DNA of 9,821 bases, from NCBI GenBank assembly GCA_947629115.1, contig CANRCL010000037.1, forward strand, positions 1 through 9,821, written 5' to 3'. Position 1 is the stretch's first letter. Each line of letters begins with the position of its first letter. A program made the translations under genes and the position numbers. Of this stretch, positions 4,318-9,743 are shown in pieces. The notes under the pieces are model-generated. The model did not search any database and was not told the origin of the DNA. It saw nothing but the letters and a program-made list of their open reading frames with translations. This stretch comes from an uncultured Bacilli bacterium (GTDB lineage Bacteria; Bacillota_I; Bacilli_A; RF39; UBA660).

Positions 4318-4857
4318 TTAATTTACAGCGCTACAATCAAATTTTGTATTTTCAGGAATAGTAGTACTATCTTTAACATCAGCACTATCTACTTCGCTTT
4401 CTTCTACATCTACATAATAAGCGGTGTTTCGCATAACAATATGATAAGTATAGTTATTAGAACCTGTTATTGGTTTTACAACAACATATCCTTCATAATC
4501 GCCACCTTTATTATTTGCTTTAATGGCTTTTGGACTTTTATCCCACCAACTTAAATCAACTAATTTTTTTAAAGAGAAACAATAGCCACCAGTAATTTGT
4601 TTATAATTTGCTTCATCACCTGTTGGTAAATTTGCATCCCCATGACGATGTGTACCAATTGCAATCATTGTCATTTCATTTGATGCTGCCTCTACTGCTG
4701 CAGTTGCTTCTACGGCAAATGCACTTTCTCTTGCTTTATTCATATATGGTAGAATTGTTGACATTGCTAATAACATAACAATTGCTAATACCACAATAAC
4801 GGCCAATAATTCAATAAGAGTAAAACCTTTATTATTCTTGAACGTTTTCAAAAACAT
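4318..4857 (-). CDS. Type IV pilin-like prepilin (major-pilin-like)
   Basis: A 179-residue prepilin. The class III leader ends KG|FTLIELLAV: prepilin peptidase would cut after Gly11, leaving Phe12 as the methylated N-terminus and Glu16 as the conserved Glu5 that guides filament assembly. The hydrophobic helix covers about residues 12-37. Cys93 (GGYCFSL) and Cys175 (KFDCSAVN) could form the C-terminal disulfide loop typical of type IV pilins. A near-consensus promoter and a terminator bracket the gene, so it is expressed on its own, as expected for an abundant structural subunit. The start needs care: GAGGTG lies only 1 nt before the ATG, but 7 nt before an in-frame TTG at 4849-4851, which is the more likely true start and shortens the leader by two residues. 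No pilus motor, platform or peptidase genes are visible. Confidence 0.88.
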   Translation of the reverse strand: MFLKTFKNNKGFTLIELLAVIVVLAIVMLLAMSTILPYMNKARESAFAVEATAAVEAASNEMTMIAIGTHRHGDANLPTGDEANYKQITGGYCFSLKKLVDLSWWDKSPKAIKANNKGGDYEGYVVVKPITGSNNYTYHIVMRNTAYYVDVEESEVDSADVKDSTTIPENTKFDCSAVN

Positions 4858-4879
4858 CCACCTCTATCCTTATAAAATA

Positions 4880-4908
4880 ATCTTACAATAATTATTATTC
4901 GTTGTCAA
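4880..4908 (-). promoter_or_regulatory. Strong sigma-A-type promoter for the small prepilin gene
   Basis: On the minus strand, a perfect TTGACA (4903-4908), a 17-nt spacer and TAAGAT (4880-4885, one mismatch to consensus) lie in the 89-bp gap between the two prepilin genes. The predicted start is a few bases before the GAGGTG ribosome binding site at 4858-4865. Consensus strength suggests high expression of this pilin relative to its upstream neighbour. Confidence 0.75.
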
Positions 4909-4946
4909 TTAAAAAGGCATGCATTTTACAAAAAAATTTTTTCCTT

Positions 4947-5927
4947 TTAGCCAATATGATTTATTACCAAACTATCATAACTACCAATATTGCCAACTTT
5001 ATCTTTAACACATACTAAATAAGTCCCATTTTTATTAACAGTCCATACATTATTTGATTTATAACTGGCATCCGGAATATTATTACAAGTTTGTCCCGTT
5101 GTTTTTATTCCTAAATAATAAGTAGCTATACCTGATCCTTTTCCATCACTTGCCACAATGGTTACATTCTTATTAGGTGTATTTATAAAACGATTAGCAA
5201 TAGTAAATTCATTTGGATAAATAACCGGGTTTTCATTATCAATTTTTAAATCAACTGAAGCACTATACCTTTTAACATTATCACTATTATAAAAAGTTAA
5301 TTGAAAAGTATATTTAGTTGTTAAAATTCCATTAATATTATCTAATACAATATTAGCCTTATTTTCAATTGAAGCCCCACTACTACTTGTCCATATACAT
5401 TTATTATTCGAATTTTCACAATTTATATCAACATCATTACTTGATGGATTAAGACTTATACCACTTCCTCTTACCCAACCATCAGCATTTGAAGGAGCAT
5501 AAGCCCCGATTAAATCTATATTAATACTTGCCGTTTGTTGATTTAATTTATTCTTATCGCAAGTTCCATTAACATCATAATCCATTCCATCAATAAATTT
5601 TGCTTCGTAATAATTACCCTTTTTTTCCATTTCAATTAAATAACAATTTAGTCTTTTATTGGTAACTGGGTCATTTATAGTTCCATCTTCTTCATCACTA
5701 TCTAAATAGCCAGCCTCAACAAGGTCATTAGCAAATATTATTGTTTCTCCAGTATCAAAAGCATATTTAGCGGCGGCGACTTCAATATTACTAATCATAT
5801 TCCGTCTTTGACTTTCTCTAATTGTTTTTACTACATTGTTAATACTAGGAACCGCAATCGCAAATATTAAAGCCAATATTACTATCGTAGCAATTAATTC
5901 AATTAAAGTAAAACCTCTCTTATTCAT
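4947..5927 (-). CDS. Large type IV pilin-like protein with C-terminal Ig-like region
   Basis: A 326-residue prepilin. The leader is very short, MNKRG|FTLIELIATI, with cleavage expected after Gly5 and Glu10 as the conserved Glu5 of the mature protein. The membrane/assembly helix spans about residues 6-30. A helical stretch and a pilin-type region run to about residue 130. The remaining region is beta-rich, cysteine-containing and reads as one or more Ig-like modules, ending with DGKGSGIATYYLG...GTYLVCVKDKVGNIGS, a module type seen at the ends of surface proteins in gut Bacillota. The size and extra domains suggest a minor or tip-located pilin or a displayed adhesin-like pseudopilin rather than the main subunit; that is inference. 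The ribosome binding site is AGGTGA with 4-nt spacing. The next gene on the strand is a second prepilin with its own promoter. Confidence 0.85.
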   Translation of the reverse strand: MNKRGFTLIELIATIVILALIFAIAVPSINNVVKTIRESQRRNMISNIEVAAAKYAFDTGETIIFANDLVEAGYLDSDEEDGTINDPVTNKRLNCYLIEMEKKGNYYEAKFIDGMDYDVNGTCDKNKLNQQTASINIDLIGAYAPSNADGWVRGSGISLNPSSNDVDINCENSNNKCIWTSSSGASIENKANIVLDNINGILTTKYTFQLTFYNSDNVKRYSASVDLKIDNENPVIYPNEFTIANRFINTPNKNVTIVASDGKGSGIATYYLGIKTTGQTCNNIPDASYKSNNVWTVNKNGTYLVCVKDKVGNIGSYDSLVINHIG

Positions 5928-6919: not shown

Positions 6920-7729
6920 TTAATCAAAACTTTCAACGTTTGAACATACAAATTCAGTATTATCAACTTTTAAAGATAATTTCTTATCTGCTAAATAATT
7001 TTGATTAGCATTTCTATTAACAATTTTTAATGCTGCTTCAAATGCGGCTTCGCCTTTAACTTCTTCTACATTAGCAGTAGTAATATCATAAACTACATGG
7101 AATGTTGTTCCGGCTTCTGCTTTTAAAACACTTAATAAATCAAATTCTACACTATCTGCTTTATTAGAAATAGTTTCAGTTGATTTATAAAAATACACAT
7201 GATTGCTACCATTGTCAGATGCTGAGTTTTGGAACTTGATTGAACCATCTTCGGCTTGCATTTGAGTATCTCCAGCTTTCGCTACTTCAGCCATTGTATT
7301 TTCACCTTCACCAGCAGAAATTTTAACTGTTGATGTACAACGGAATTTCTTTCCTTCAGTACCACCTTTTATTACTGCCGTTGCAATTTTATGATATGTT
7401 TCAGCATCAGTTTTGTTGCTTTGAAAGCCACTATCAGATTGATTTGGAGTTGTAGTAGCATAATATGCTTTACCACTATCACCAGCATTCATTTGTGACA
7501 TATCAGCAGCACTTAAAGCAATATAGAACTCATCTTCATGGTCAGTAAGTGATGCAGTACCGAATGTTGCTTCATCTACTCCTTCAGTAGTACCTTGGAA
7601 TTGAGTTGATGAAGTACCGCCACCTCCTTGTTGTACTATTGAAAAGTATGCAAATGTTGCACCTACTACTGCAACTAATAATGTAGCAACAGCAATAACT
7701 GTTAAAAGCATCGTATTTTTCTTGTCCAT
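6920..7729 (-). CDS. TasA/camelysin-like exported protein, paralogue 3
   Basis: A 269-residue exported protein, third in transcription order of three tandem paralogues. Residues 7-23 are hydrophobic and lead into GATFAYFS (23-30). This resembles the SipW-type signal of TasA and camelysin, where cleavage would fall after Ala27. DEATFGTASLTD (52-63) vaguely recalls the ATFASGTLDL stretch near the start of mature TasA. A glycine-rich linker follows the signal. Two cysteines conserved in all three copies, Cys131 (RCTST) and Cys262 (FVCSN), could form a disulfide outside the cell. The start is firm: GGAG lies 9 nt before the ATG and there is no upstream alternative. Unlike its siblings it has a consensus promoter with no G run, so it may be the steadily expressed copy. 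No SipW peptidase or sortase motif is visible. The exact family is inferred. Confidence 0.75.
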   Translation of the reverse strand: MDKKNTMLLTVIAVATLLVAVVGATFAYFSIVQQGGGGTSSTQFQGTTEGVDEATFGTASLTDHEDEFYIALSAADMSQMNAGDSGKAYYATTTPNQSDSGFQSNKTDAETYHKIATAVIKGGTEGKKFRCTSTVKISAGEGENTMAEVAKAGDTQMQAEDGSIKFQNSASDNGSNHVYFYKSTETISNKADSVEFDLLSVLKAEAGTTFHVVYDITTANVEEVKGEAAFEAALKIVNRNANQNYLADKKLSLKVDNTEFVCSNVESFD

Positions 7730-7754: not shown

Positions 7755-7784
7755 ATTATAGAACAATATTTTTTGCTTTGTCAA
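7755..7784 (-). promoter_or_regulatory. Consensus promoter for surface-protein paralogue 3
   Basis: On the minus strand, a perfect TTGACA (7779-7784), an 18-nt AT-rich spacer and a perfect TATAAT (7755-7760) precede the gene at 6920-7729. No homopolymeric G run is present, in contrast to the promoters of the other two paralogues. Confidence 0.8.
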
Positions 7785-7847: not shown

Positions 7848-7877
7848 TTAAAAATAACGGACAAGTGTTATTTTTAA
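7848..7877 (-). terminator. Hairpin downstream of paralogue 2, with conserved loop
   Basis: A perfect 11-bp stem (TTAAAAATAAC / GTTATTTTTAA) closes an 8-nt loop reading ACTTGTCC on the minus strand. It is AT-rich with a T-rich 3' arm and lies about 40 nt after the stop codon of the gene at 7917-8738. The CTTGTCC loop is shared with the hairpin at 8815-8838. Confidence 0.6.
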
Positions 7878-7916: not shown

Positions 7917-8738
7917 CTAAAAATTATCGACAGCAGAACATACAAATTTTGTATTATCAACTTGTAAAGTTAAATTTTTATCTGCTAAATAGTTTTGATT
8001 AGCATTTCTATTAACAATTTTTAATGCGGCTTCAAATCCGGCTTGACCAATTACACTTGGCGCCTCAGATTCAGATGTTGCAGTTGTAATATCATATACA
8101 ATATTAAATGTTGTTGCTTCTTTTAAAACACTTAATAAATCAAATTCAATGCTATCTTTTTTATCAGTAATAGTTTCTGTTGATTTGTAAAAATAAACGT
8201 GATTAGCATCCGTTGATTGTGCTTGTATATTACGGAATGTAATTGCACCATCTTCTGCTACTACTTTTTTATCAGTTGAATATCCATCATTACCCTCCAC
8301 ATAAGTTTTTAAAGTACCACTTGGAGTAATAGTTGCAGTTGATGTACAGCGAATTTTTTTATCTGCTTTTCCACCATTAATTACCGCAGTAGCAACTGTA
8401 TGAAATGCATTTCCAACTTCAGTTTCTTTATTCGTAGTTAAACCATCATTAGGAGTTGTAGTAGCATAATAATCTTTGCCACTTTCACCAGCATTTCCTT
8501 GAGACATATCAGCAGCACTTAAAGTAATATAAAATTCATCTTTGCTATCAGTAAGTGAAGCCGTACCAAAAGTATCTTTATCTACTCCTTCAGTAGTACC
8601 TTGAAATTTAGTTGCTGAAGTACTTCCTCCCTCAGGTTGTTGCACTATTGAGAAATATGCAAATGTTGCTCCTACTACCGCAACAAGTAAAGTTGCCACC
8701 GCAATTACAGTTAATAACATCGTATTTTTCTTATCCAT
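7917..8738 (-). CDS. TasA/camelysin-like exported protein, paralogue 2 (putatively phase-variable)
   Basis: A 273-residue paralogue with the same first 33 residues as its neighbours through GATFAYFSIVQ. The hydrophobic signal ends in the SipW-like motif, followed by a Gly/Ser-rich linker, Cys131 (RCTST) and Cys267 (FVCSA). The ATG at 8736-8738 is chosen over an in-frame GTG at 8748-8750, because that GTG overlaps the Shine-Dalgarno AAGGAG (8750-8755) and paralogue 3 starts at the equivalent Met. The middle (about residues 133-175, TITPSGTLKTYVEG to FRNIQAQ) differs strongly from the other two copies, whereas the segment ITTATSESEAPSV is shared with paralogue 1 only. It ends in DNF, lacking the final Asp of its siblings. 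Its promoter carries G7 and a 15-nt spacer, probably a weak or off state. Confidence 0.75.
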   Translation of the reverse strand: MDKKNTMLLTVIAVATLLVAVVGATFAYFSIVQQPEGGSTSATKFQGTTEGVDKDTFGTASLTDSKDEFYITLSAADMSQGNAGESGKDYYATTTPNDGLTTNKETEVGNAFHTVATAVINGGKADKKIRCTSTATITPSGTLKTYVEGNDGYSTDKKVVAEDGAITFRNIQAQSTDANHVYFYKSTETITDKKDSIEFDLLSVLKEATTFNIVYDITTATSESEAPSVIGQAGFEAALKIVNRNANQNYLADKNLTLQVDNTKFVCSAVDNF

Positions 8739-8792
8739 TTTATTTAACACTCCTTCCTATTTTTCATTATAAATTACCCCCCCGATTGTCAA
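8736..8792 (-). repeat. Promoter-leader block duplicated at 9685-9743
   Basis: The stretch from the -35 box through the ribosome binding site to the start codon is almost identical to that at 9685-9743. Differences are confined mainly to two bases plus one G in the spacer and a single base before the ATG. Upstream of the -35 the two regions diverge. Promoter, G run and leader were therefore duplicated with the gene or homogenised afterwards. Confidence 0.8.
8766..8792 (-). promoter_or_regulatory. Promoter with G7 run in a 15-nt spacer (paralogue 2)
   Basis: On the minus strand, a perfect TTGACA (8787-8792) and a perfect TATAAT (8766-8771) are separated by ATC, seven Gs and TAATT, 15 nt in total. 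Two bases short of the optimum predicts weak activity. Loss or gain of Gs by slippage would change the spacing, so the promoter is probably phase-variable. Confidence 0.75.
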
Positions 8793-8814: not shown

Positions 8815-8838
8815 TAAAAAACGGACAAGGGTTATTTT
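8815..8838 (-). terminator. Hairpin/terminator downstream of paralogue 1
   Basis: On the minus strand AAAATAAC and GTTTTTTA form a stem with one mismatch around an 8-nt CCTTGTCC loop, and the 3' arm is a T run. It starts 16 nt after the stop codon of the gene at 8854-9687. The loop matches that at 7848-7877. Confidence 0.5.
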
Positions 8839-8853
8839 CAATATTTAATTTTA

Positions 8854-9687
8854 TTAATCAAAATTTTCAACGTTTGAACAAACGAAATCATCTGTATCAA
8901 CTTTTAATGATAATTTTTTACCTGCTAAATAATTTTGAGTTGCATTTCTATTAACAATTTTTAATGCGGCTTCAAATCCGGCTTGACCTTTTACACTTGG
9001 CGCTTCAGATTCAGATGTTGCAGTTGTAATATCATAAACAATAGTAAATGTTGTTGATTCGGCAGTTAATAAACTTAATAAATCGTATTCAAGGCTTTCT
9101 GCTTTTGAAGATATAGTTTCTCCAGATTTATAGAAATATACATGATTTGTTCCACTTTCTGAAGTACTATTTTGGAATTTAATTGAACCATCATCAGCAA
9201 GCATTTTTTGTCCTTCTGGTGCAGTTGCTGCTTGAGATGCAACTTCTTTTAAAGTATTTTCACCATCACCAGCACTAATAGTTGCAGTTGACGTACAACG
9301 GAATTTTTTATTAGCAGTACCACCATCAATTACAGCAGTAGCAACTTTATAAAATGTTTCAGCATCATTTTTATTACTTGTTACAACTCCATCACCTTGA
9401 TTTGGCACATTTGTTGCATAATATGCTTTTCCACTATCACCAGCATTTACTTGTGACATATCAGCAGCAGTTAAAGCAATATAAAAATCATCAGTATGGT
9501 CAGTAAGTGATGCAGTACCAAATGTTGCTGCATCCACTCCTTCAGTTGTACCTTGGAACTTAGTTGCTGAAGTACCTCCTCCCTCGCCTTGAACTATTGA
9601 GAAGTATGCAAATGTTGCTCCAACTACCGCAACAAGTAAAGTTGCAACTGCAATTACAGTCAATAGCATCGTATTTTTCTTATCCAT
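8854..9687 (-). CDS. TasA/camelysin-like exported protein, paralogue 1 (putatively phase-variable)
   Basis: A 277-residue paralogue, first in transcription order. The N-terminus is the shared hydrophobic signal with GATFAYFS at 23-30, then GEGGGTS linker, AATFGTASLTDH (53-64), Cys131 (RCTST) and Cys270 (FVCSN). The ATG at 9685-9687 is preferred over the GTG at 9697-9699, which overlaps the Shine-Dalgarno AAGGAG (9699-9704). The protein is a mosaic: the middle (TISAGDGENT, then IKFQNSTSESG) resembles paralogue 3, the ITTATSESEAPSV segment matches paralogue 2, and the last 20 or so residues (KKLSLKV to NFD) return to paralogue 3. Its promoter has G8 and an ideal 17-nt spacer, so this copy is predicted to be on in the sequenced genome. 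An exported, surface or extracellular matrix role is inferred from the signal. Confidence 0.75.
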   Translation of the reverse strand: MDKKNTMLLTVIAVATLLVAVVGATFAYFSIVQGEGGGTSATKFQGTTEGVDAATFGTASLTDHTDDFYIALTAADMSQVNAGDSGKAYYATNVPNQGDGVVTSNKNDAETFYKVATAVIDGGTANKKFRCTSTATISAGDGENTLKEVASQAATAPEGQKMLADDGSIKFQNSTSESGTNHVYFYKSGETISSKAESLEYDLLSLLTAESTTFTIVYDITTATSESEAPSVKGQAGFEAALKIVNRNATQNYLAGKKLSLKVDTDDFVCSNVENFD

Positions 9688-9743
9688 TATATTTAACACT
9701 CCTTCCTATTTTTCATTATAAATTACCCCCCCCGAGTTGTCAA
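9685..9743 (-). repeat. Promoter-leader block duplicated at 8736-8792
   Basis: Counterpart of the block upstream of paralogue 2, with nearly the same sequence from TTGACA to the ATG. The main difference is in the spacer: ACTC plus eight Gs here against ATC plus seven Gs there. Confidence 0.8.
9715..9743 (-). promoter_or_regulatory. Promoter with G8 run in a 17-nt spacer (paralogue 1)
   Basis: On the minus strand, a perfect TTGACA (9738-9743) and a perfect TATAAT (9715-9720) are separated by ACTC, eight Gs and TAATT, exactly 17 nt. With both hexamers perfect and the spacing optimal this should be a very strong promoter. A/T tracts upstream (9750-9821) could act as an UP element. The G run makes it a candidate slippage switch. 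Confidence 0.8.

Follow-up and report, generated by a model that had tools for sequence, protein, structure and literature searches.

The window, a 9,821-nt stretch of DNA from an uncultured Bacilli bacterium, carries on its minus strand three paralogous genes, each behind its own promoter (Table 1). Paralogue 1 codes for a protein with a hydrophobic N-terminal segment, MDKKNTMLLTVIAVATLLVAVVGATFAYF, and a predicted beta-sandwich. The initial annotation had placed a run of eight Gs exactly between perfect TTGACA and TATAAT boxes with a 17-nt spacer ahead of this gene, which direct reading confirmed, and a promoter scan of the window scored the same promoter as a 12/12 match with a spacer of 17. 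It had mentioned paralogue 1 alone; the poly-G element is present in two of the three paralogues, as G8 in paralogue 1 and as G7 in paralogue 2. From their spacers, the promoter of paralogue 1 (17 nt) is predicted to be on, that of paralogue 2 (15 nt) to be weak or off, and that of paralogue 3 to be fixed and non-switching.

Table 1. Paralogues 1 to 3 of the window and their promoter elements
Feature	Position	Strand	Basis or prediction
-35 box TTGACA, poly-G promoter of paralogue 1	9738..9743	-	read directly and promoter scan
17-nt spacer ACTC-GGGGGGGG-TAATT (ACTC-G8-TAATT), G8 at 9726-9733	9721..9737	-	read directly
-10 box TATAAT, paralogue 1	9715..9720	-	read directly and promoter scan
SD-like AGGAAGGAG, paralogue 1	~9707-9699	-	read directly
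Paralogue 1, 277 aa, ATG at 9687	8854..9687	-	
-35 box TTGACA, paralogue 2	8787..8792	-	read directly
15-nt spacer ATC-G7-TAATT, G7 at 8777-8783	8772..8786	-	predicted weak or off
-10 box TATAAT, paralogue 2	8766..8771	-	read directly
Paralogue 2, 273 aa, 70% identity to paralogue 1	7917..8738	-	
Promoter of paralogue 3, TTGACA-18-TATAAT, without G run	7755..7784	-	predicted non-switching
Paralogue 3, 269 aa, 78% identity to paralogue 1	6920..7729	-	

The scan of the whole window returned 15 sites and 15.2 in shuffled sequences, that is, no excess, so that the -35 and -10 boxes by themselves are no proof of a promoter. The window contains the exact G8 promoter pattern once, whereas 0/200 dinucleotide shuffles contain it. 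Similarly, there are five GGGGGG windows for 0.58 expected, a number reached by none of 200 shuffles, and all five fall inside the promoters of paralogues 1 and 2.

The annotation was partly supported as a whole. Its observation of the promoter and G run stood; its assignment of the product to a TasA/camelysin-like family was not supported by family searches. None of the three window proteins matched PF12389, NF046066 or TIGR04088 (E≤0.1 for Pfam and E≤0.01 for NCBIfam), and Foldseek returned no PDB match at E 0.001; the predicted fold may be compatible with a TasA-like jelly roll. Two other features of the window can be mentioned. A common element, ACGGACAAG.GTTATTTT, is found at 8818-8840 and at 7856-7875, in the intergenic sequences after paralogues 1 and 2. 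Additionally, positions 4318-5927 code for two prepilin-like proteins with N-methylation motifs and ComGC-like N-termini, adjoining nfo and genes for a ZIP transporter and a PBP2-type transpeptidase, rpmG and efp.

Distribution and position of poly-G promoters

The regions upstream of homologues were read at 31 loci of GTDB genomes. Many contain the arrangement TTGACA-...-G8..10-...-TATAAT, and others are G-free, of the type TTGACA-...-TGTAGAAT. The leaders of the G-free promoters at these loci contain an inverted repeat, GAAATATAGA..TATTTC, and the poly-G leaders a different one, ATAGATAGAT..ATTCTATC; both are possible stabilising hairpins.

A strict pattern, TTGACA-N2..14-G7+-N0..8-TATAAT, was then searched in the 21 genomes behind 22 of these loci and was found in 13 of them, with 39 copies in genome G012, 23 in G015, 18 in G009, 12 in G010 and one to three in the other nine. 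Since both hexamers and the G run are built into the search, their presence and conservation at the sites retrieved hold by construction; in this sense the homopolymer is poly-G, and not poly-A, in the window and at all counted sites. The survey yielded 185 strict sites with the homopolymer between -35 and -10 in 29 genomes, among which the spacers differ in their non-G letters and in where the run is placed. The pattern was present in 17/145 genomes of the family of G012 and in 48/288 genomes of the order of G010, which may be RF39. A G8+ version was present in 17/296 genomes of a class sample, 13 of them new to the survey and possibly, though not certainly, from outside the order of G010. 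The element is therefore patchy, its strict form being missing from 128/145 and 240/288 genomes of the family and order, respectively.

Read backwards, the pattern was absent from every genome of the homologue, family, order (0/288) and class sets, and the recurrence of the element is not due to chance. A C run in the equivalent place was found in 0/29 genomes; therefore, the Gs lie on the coding strand.

G runs were concentrated in these promoters in several genomes, with overlapping G8 windows falling inside strict sites in 19/19 cases in G079, 35/36 in G015, 41/48 in G012 and 27/33 in G009. The figures were less favourable for G140 (41/70), G010 (13/42), G048 (24/87) and G153 (26/154). We read by eye 30 loci from the 38 G8+ runs of G010, and 29 were situated between -35-like and -10-like boxes, many of which were TTGACT or TATACT and hence outside the strict pattern. 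Even among genomes without a strict site, 21/30 contain G8+ runs, up to 63 of them. Twenty contexts from such genomes, also examined by eye, comprised 12 divergent forms of the promoter before a gene for a product with a hydrophobic N-terminus (the boxes from G042 being poor), three promoter-like sequences without a readable gene, and five that were neither.

Two poly-G promoters of G153 (L140, at ~1977 in C39, and L285, at ~523 in C16) continue after the Gs not with TATAAT but with an unrelated sequence, AGACTGTCTGAGAATGAATG.., common to both. Both junctions are near contig ends, and 6/10 fetched contig starts of this genome fall inside a G run; a breakpoint, an insertion or an assembly effect are alternative explanations. 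One IMG/VR contig classed as viral (L195, GC 0.33) contains TTGACA-..-G11-TATAAT before a gene for a product with a hydrophobic N-terminus. A viral origin of the element was rejected, considering that four of the six IMG/VR matches have a GC of 0.51-0.55.

Genes, tract lengths and spacers

A hydrophobic N-terminus was predicted for the products of 100/104 ORFs situated behind G7+ runs vs. 60/162 background ORFs, the former coming from any such run in the fetched regions of 14 genomes (17 of 121 runs had no ORF) and the latter from the seed loci and the window. Three of the four exceptions look like wrong or broken starts and the fourth is a glycosyltransferase. The proportion was just 13/19 downstream ORFs in the class sample (20 sites from eight genomes). 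Among 55 chosen proteins, 17 families were matched, none of them in more than seven proteins; these included camelysin M73 (PF12389, seven proteins), InlB B-repeats (four), ConA-like lectin (two), LPXTG (one) and one glycosyltransferase. As judged from these sequences, the products behind the G runs are probably surface proteins. In G012, 21 of the 24 sites read precede a single family, whose members share the anchor MRIINKKYLL.. (MRIINKKYLLIILL..) and diverge afterwards; two of the remaining sites are at contig ends and one precedes a different gene. As in the vlp system discussed below, members of this family have their own homopolymer promoter, as counted from the poly-G sites. At one G012 locus (L081, contig C32), the family member behind the promoter has an ORF of just 120 aa, with a second ORF further on, perhaps representing a frameshifted copy.

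Tract lengths, all taken from assembled contigs, ranged from 7 to 12 Gs over the 185 sites of the 29 genomes, with further sites of up to 16. The copies of one core from G012, TTGACACC[G]TAATATATAAT, contained G7 (seven copies), G8 (22), G9 (six) or G10 (two). Tandem arrays also varied internally, with G10, G9, G9 and G8 in G269 and with six copies of G8 to G10 in G015, and two sites from G033 had G10 and G14 with near-identical flanks. The number of Gs was unequal in 45/83 pairs of nearest paralogues (≥80% identity, within a genome), a comparison of paralogues within genomes, not of orthologues between genomes, in which pairs share members. In the control, A/T runs of ≥6 without interruptions in the leader and coding sequence were unequal in 5/37, after setting aside 34 runs interrupted by substitutions. 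Other sets were near-uniform: at least 34/38 runs in G010 were exactly G8 (42 windows over 38 runs) and 18/21 in G140 were G9. A comparison of the copies of three genomes revealed no pair of alleles of a single locus.

Gene mutS was above the cut-off in 38/40 genomes, 25/26 with the strict element and 13/14 without it. An explanation of the variation by a loss of mismatch repair was thus rejected: slippage is not favoured by a lack of mutS in these genomes, and a switch would operate despite mismatch repair.

Spacers were compared in two genomes, G012 and G140. Here, perfect promoters lacking a G run had a spacer of 17 nt in 31/59 cases and of 16-18 nt in 50/59; these are pattern matches and, with 17 (G012) and 8 (G140) matches in the backward-read control, up to ~25 of them could be due to chance, although chance matches would flatten, not create, the peak at 17 nt. 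The poly-G promoters, including one G6 site per genome, had 17 nt in 2/62 cases and 16-18 nt in 13/62, clustering at 15 nt in G012 and at 19 nt in G140; Fisher tests on these spacers assume that copies are independent, an assumption that paralogues violate. Poly-G promoters are, hence, displaced from 17 nt in these two genomes. Over all 185 sites, counted after removal of two duplicate readings caused by overlapping -10 boxes in G048, the distribution was bimodal, with 87 sites at 14-16 nt, 14 at 17 nt and 84 at 18-22 nt. G012 and G140 show the displacement from the optimum most clearly, because 68/185 sites are within the normal working range of 16-18 nt and several genomes centre on 16 nt.

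A putative promoter switch, its alternatives and its significance

Poly-G tracts in promoter spacers have precedents. According to PMC7864442, tp0126 of Treponema pallidum has a poly-G between -35 and -10 and is best transcribed with a 17-nt spacer, porA of Neisseria meningitidis has a poly-G between -10 and -35 and loses transcription when the 17-nt spacing is cut, and the tract of tprL varies from 7 to 11 within strains. According to PMC10502178, every member of the vlp surface family of Mycoplasma hyorhinis has a promoter-region homopolymer subject to random indels. The mechanism that the annotation invoked, with the poly-G of the porA spacer and the vlp promoter homopolymer, is known (PMC7864442, PMC10502178). 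Slippage in a G tract also controls a surface structure, the sortase-dependent pili, of the gut commensal Bifidobacterium breve, although that tract is inside a gene and not in a promoter (PMC9187656).

We consider that slipped-strand phase variation of promoter strength, with many copies parked off the optimum, is the best explanation for these sequences, with a probability of roughly three in four. The G8 tract would be a spacer, in a promoter of the sigma-70 type, at which strand slippage during replication would readily add or remove Gs. The change in their number would shift the distance between -35 and -10 through an optimum near 17 nt, altering sigma-70 binding, and transcription of the surface protein would go up or down in a heritable and reversible way. 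The window locus would then be one member of a multi-locus promoter type, with up to 39 copies per genome before probable surface-protein genes of related uncultured Bacilli. With an optimum near 17 nt, as for porA and tp0126, many copies would be weak and one to three slips away from full strength.

The off-17 spacing, with many copies at 15 or 19 nt, is expected of a mostly-off repertoire and also of a fixed, regulated weak promoter. The G run could be a fixed structural part of a purposely weak or regulated promoter, for instance if a regulator binds or bends it and compensates for the wrong spacing, with length differences arising by neutral drift between duplicates. The near-identity of the whole core in dozens of copies per genome, as in a regulon, the single length kept in genomes such as G010 and G140, and the coding-strand position of the run at all sites, with no C run in its place, agree with this. 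Against it, genomes differ in the remaining letters of the spacer and in where the run lies within it, the unequal G numbers in 45/83 closest pairs would upset a fixed site, and the 15-nt and 19-nt classes cannot both fit a single untwisting regulator. MerR-type promoters, with 19-20 nt, were rejected by reasoning as unsuited to the 14-16-nt class. Because the spacing fits both readings, we retain a fixed promoter as an unlikely alternative.

The near-identical promoter, leader and first codons, followed by diverged proteins, the existence of tandem arrays and the contigs that break at or inside the element, as in G153, would also suit a recombination cassette of promoter, leader and signal-anchor for swapping or duplicating surface genes, with the G run as a passenger. 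We regard this as quite improbable, since every gene retains its own promoter and the cassette leaves unexplained a G run maintained between -35 and -10 where the other spacer letters vary by genome. Finally, chance or an assembly artefact is hardly credible: each site comes from a single assembled contig and long G runs are error-prone, so exact lengths could here and there be wrong by one base, but the backward-read search (0/288), the window shuffles (0/200) and the many separate assemblies refute both for the presence of the run.

Phase variation by spacer slippage would resemble tp0126 in having a poly-G in the promoter spacer of a (here probable) surface-protein gene, and porA in its position between -10 and -35. 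Whereas tp0126 is one pathogen gene with this exact layout and porA a single locus of a Gram-negative pathogen, the G run is here part of a multigene repertoire of uncultured Bacilli, which can reach tens of genes in a single genome. The closest likeness in organisation is with vlp, a paralogous family with promoter homopolymers, which in that case are poly-A before pathogen lipoprotein genes and not poly-G before genes for probable surface proteins. The vlp system of M. hyorhinis comprises few genes. Among the titles and abstract openings of open-licence PubMed Central papers we found none on poly-G promoters in these Bacilli, and none pairing phase variation with RF39; the mechanism is already known from porA, tp0126 and vlp, and no case on this scale or in this setting came up in the open-licence papers searched.

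We lean, by a little over even odds, towards the view that this order of Bacilli, which have reduced genomes and are apparently commensals of the gut, possesses a promoter phasome. Tens of surface genes in some species would have their own poly-G spacers, many of them one to three bases off 17 nt, so that few would be fully on in each cell and combinatorial diversity of the surface would be generated by slippage alone, despite mutS. The sample titles of related genomes, such as "Lapin-005" and "Goat_Rectum-1", point to rabbit and goat samples. If true, this phasome would be among the largest repertoires of promoter-spacer switching and would argue against the idea that multi-locus phase variation is a trait of pathogens. 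The predicted switch can be checked in existing metagenome reads, without culture, and the poly-G promoter would provide a recognisable DNA signature for repertoires of surface antigens in unannotated genomes.
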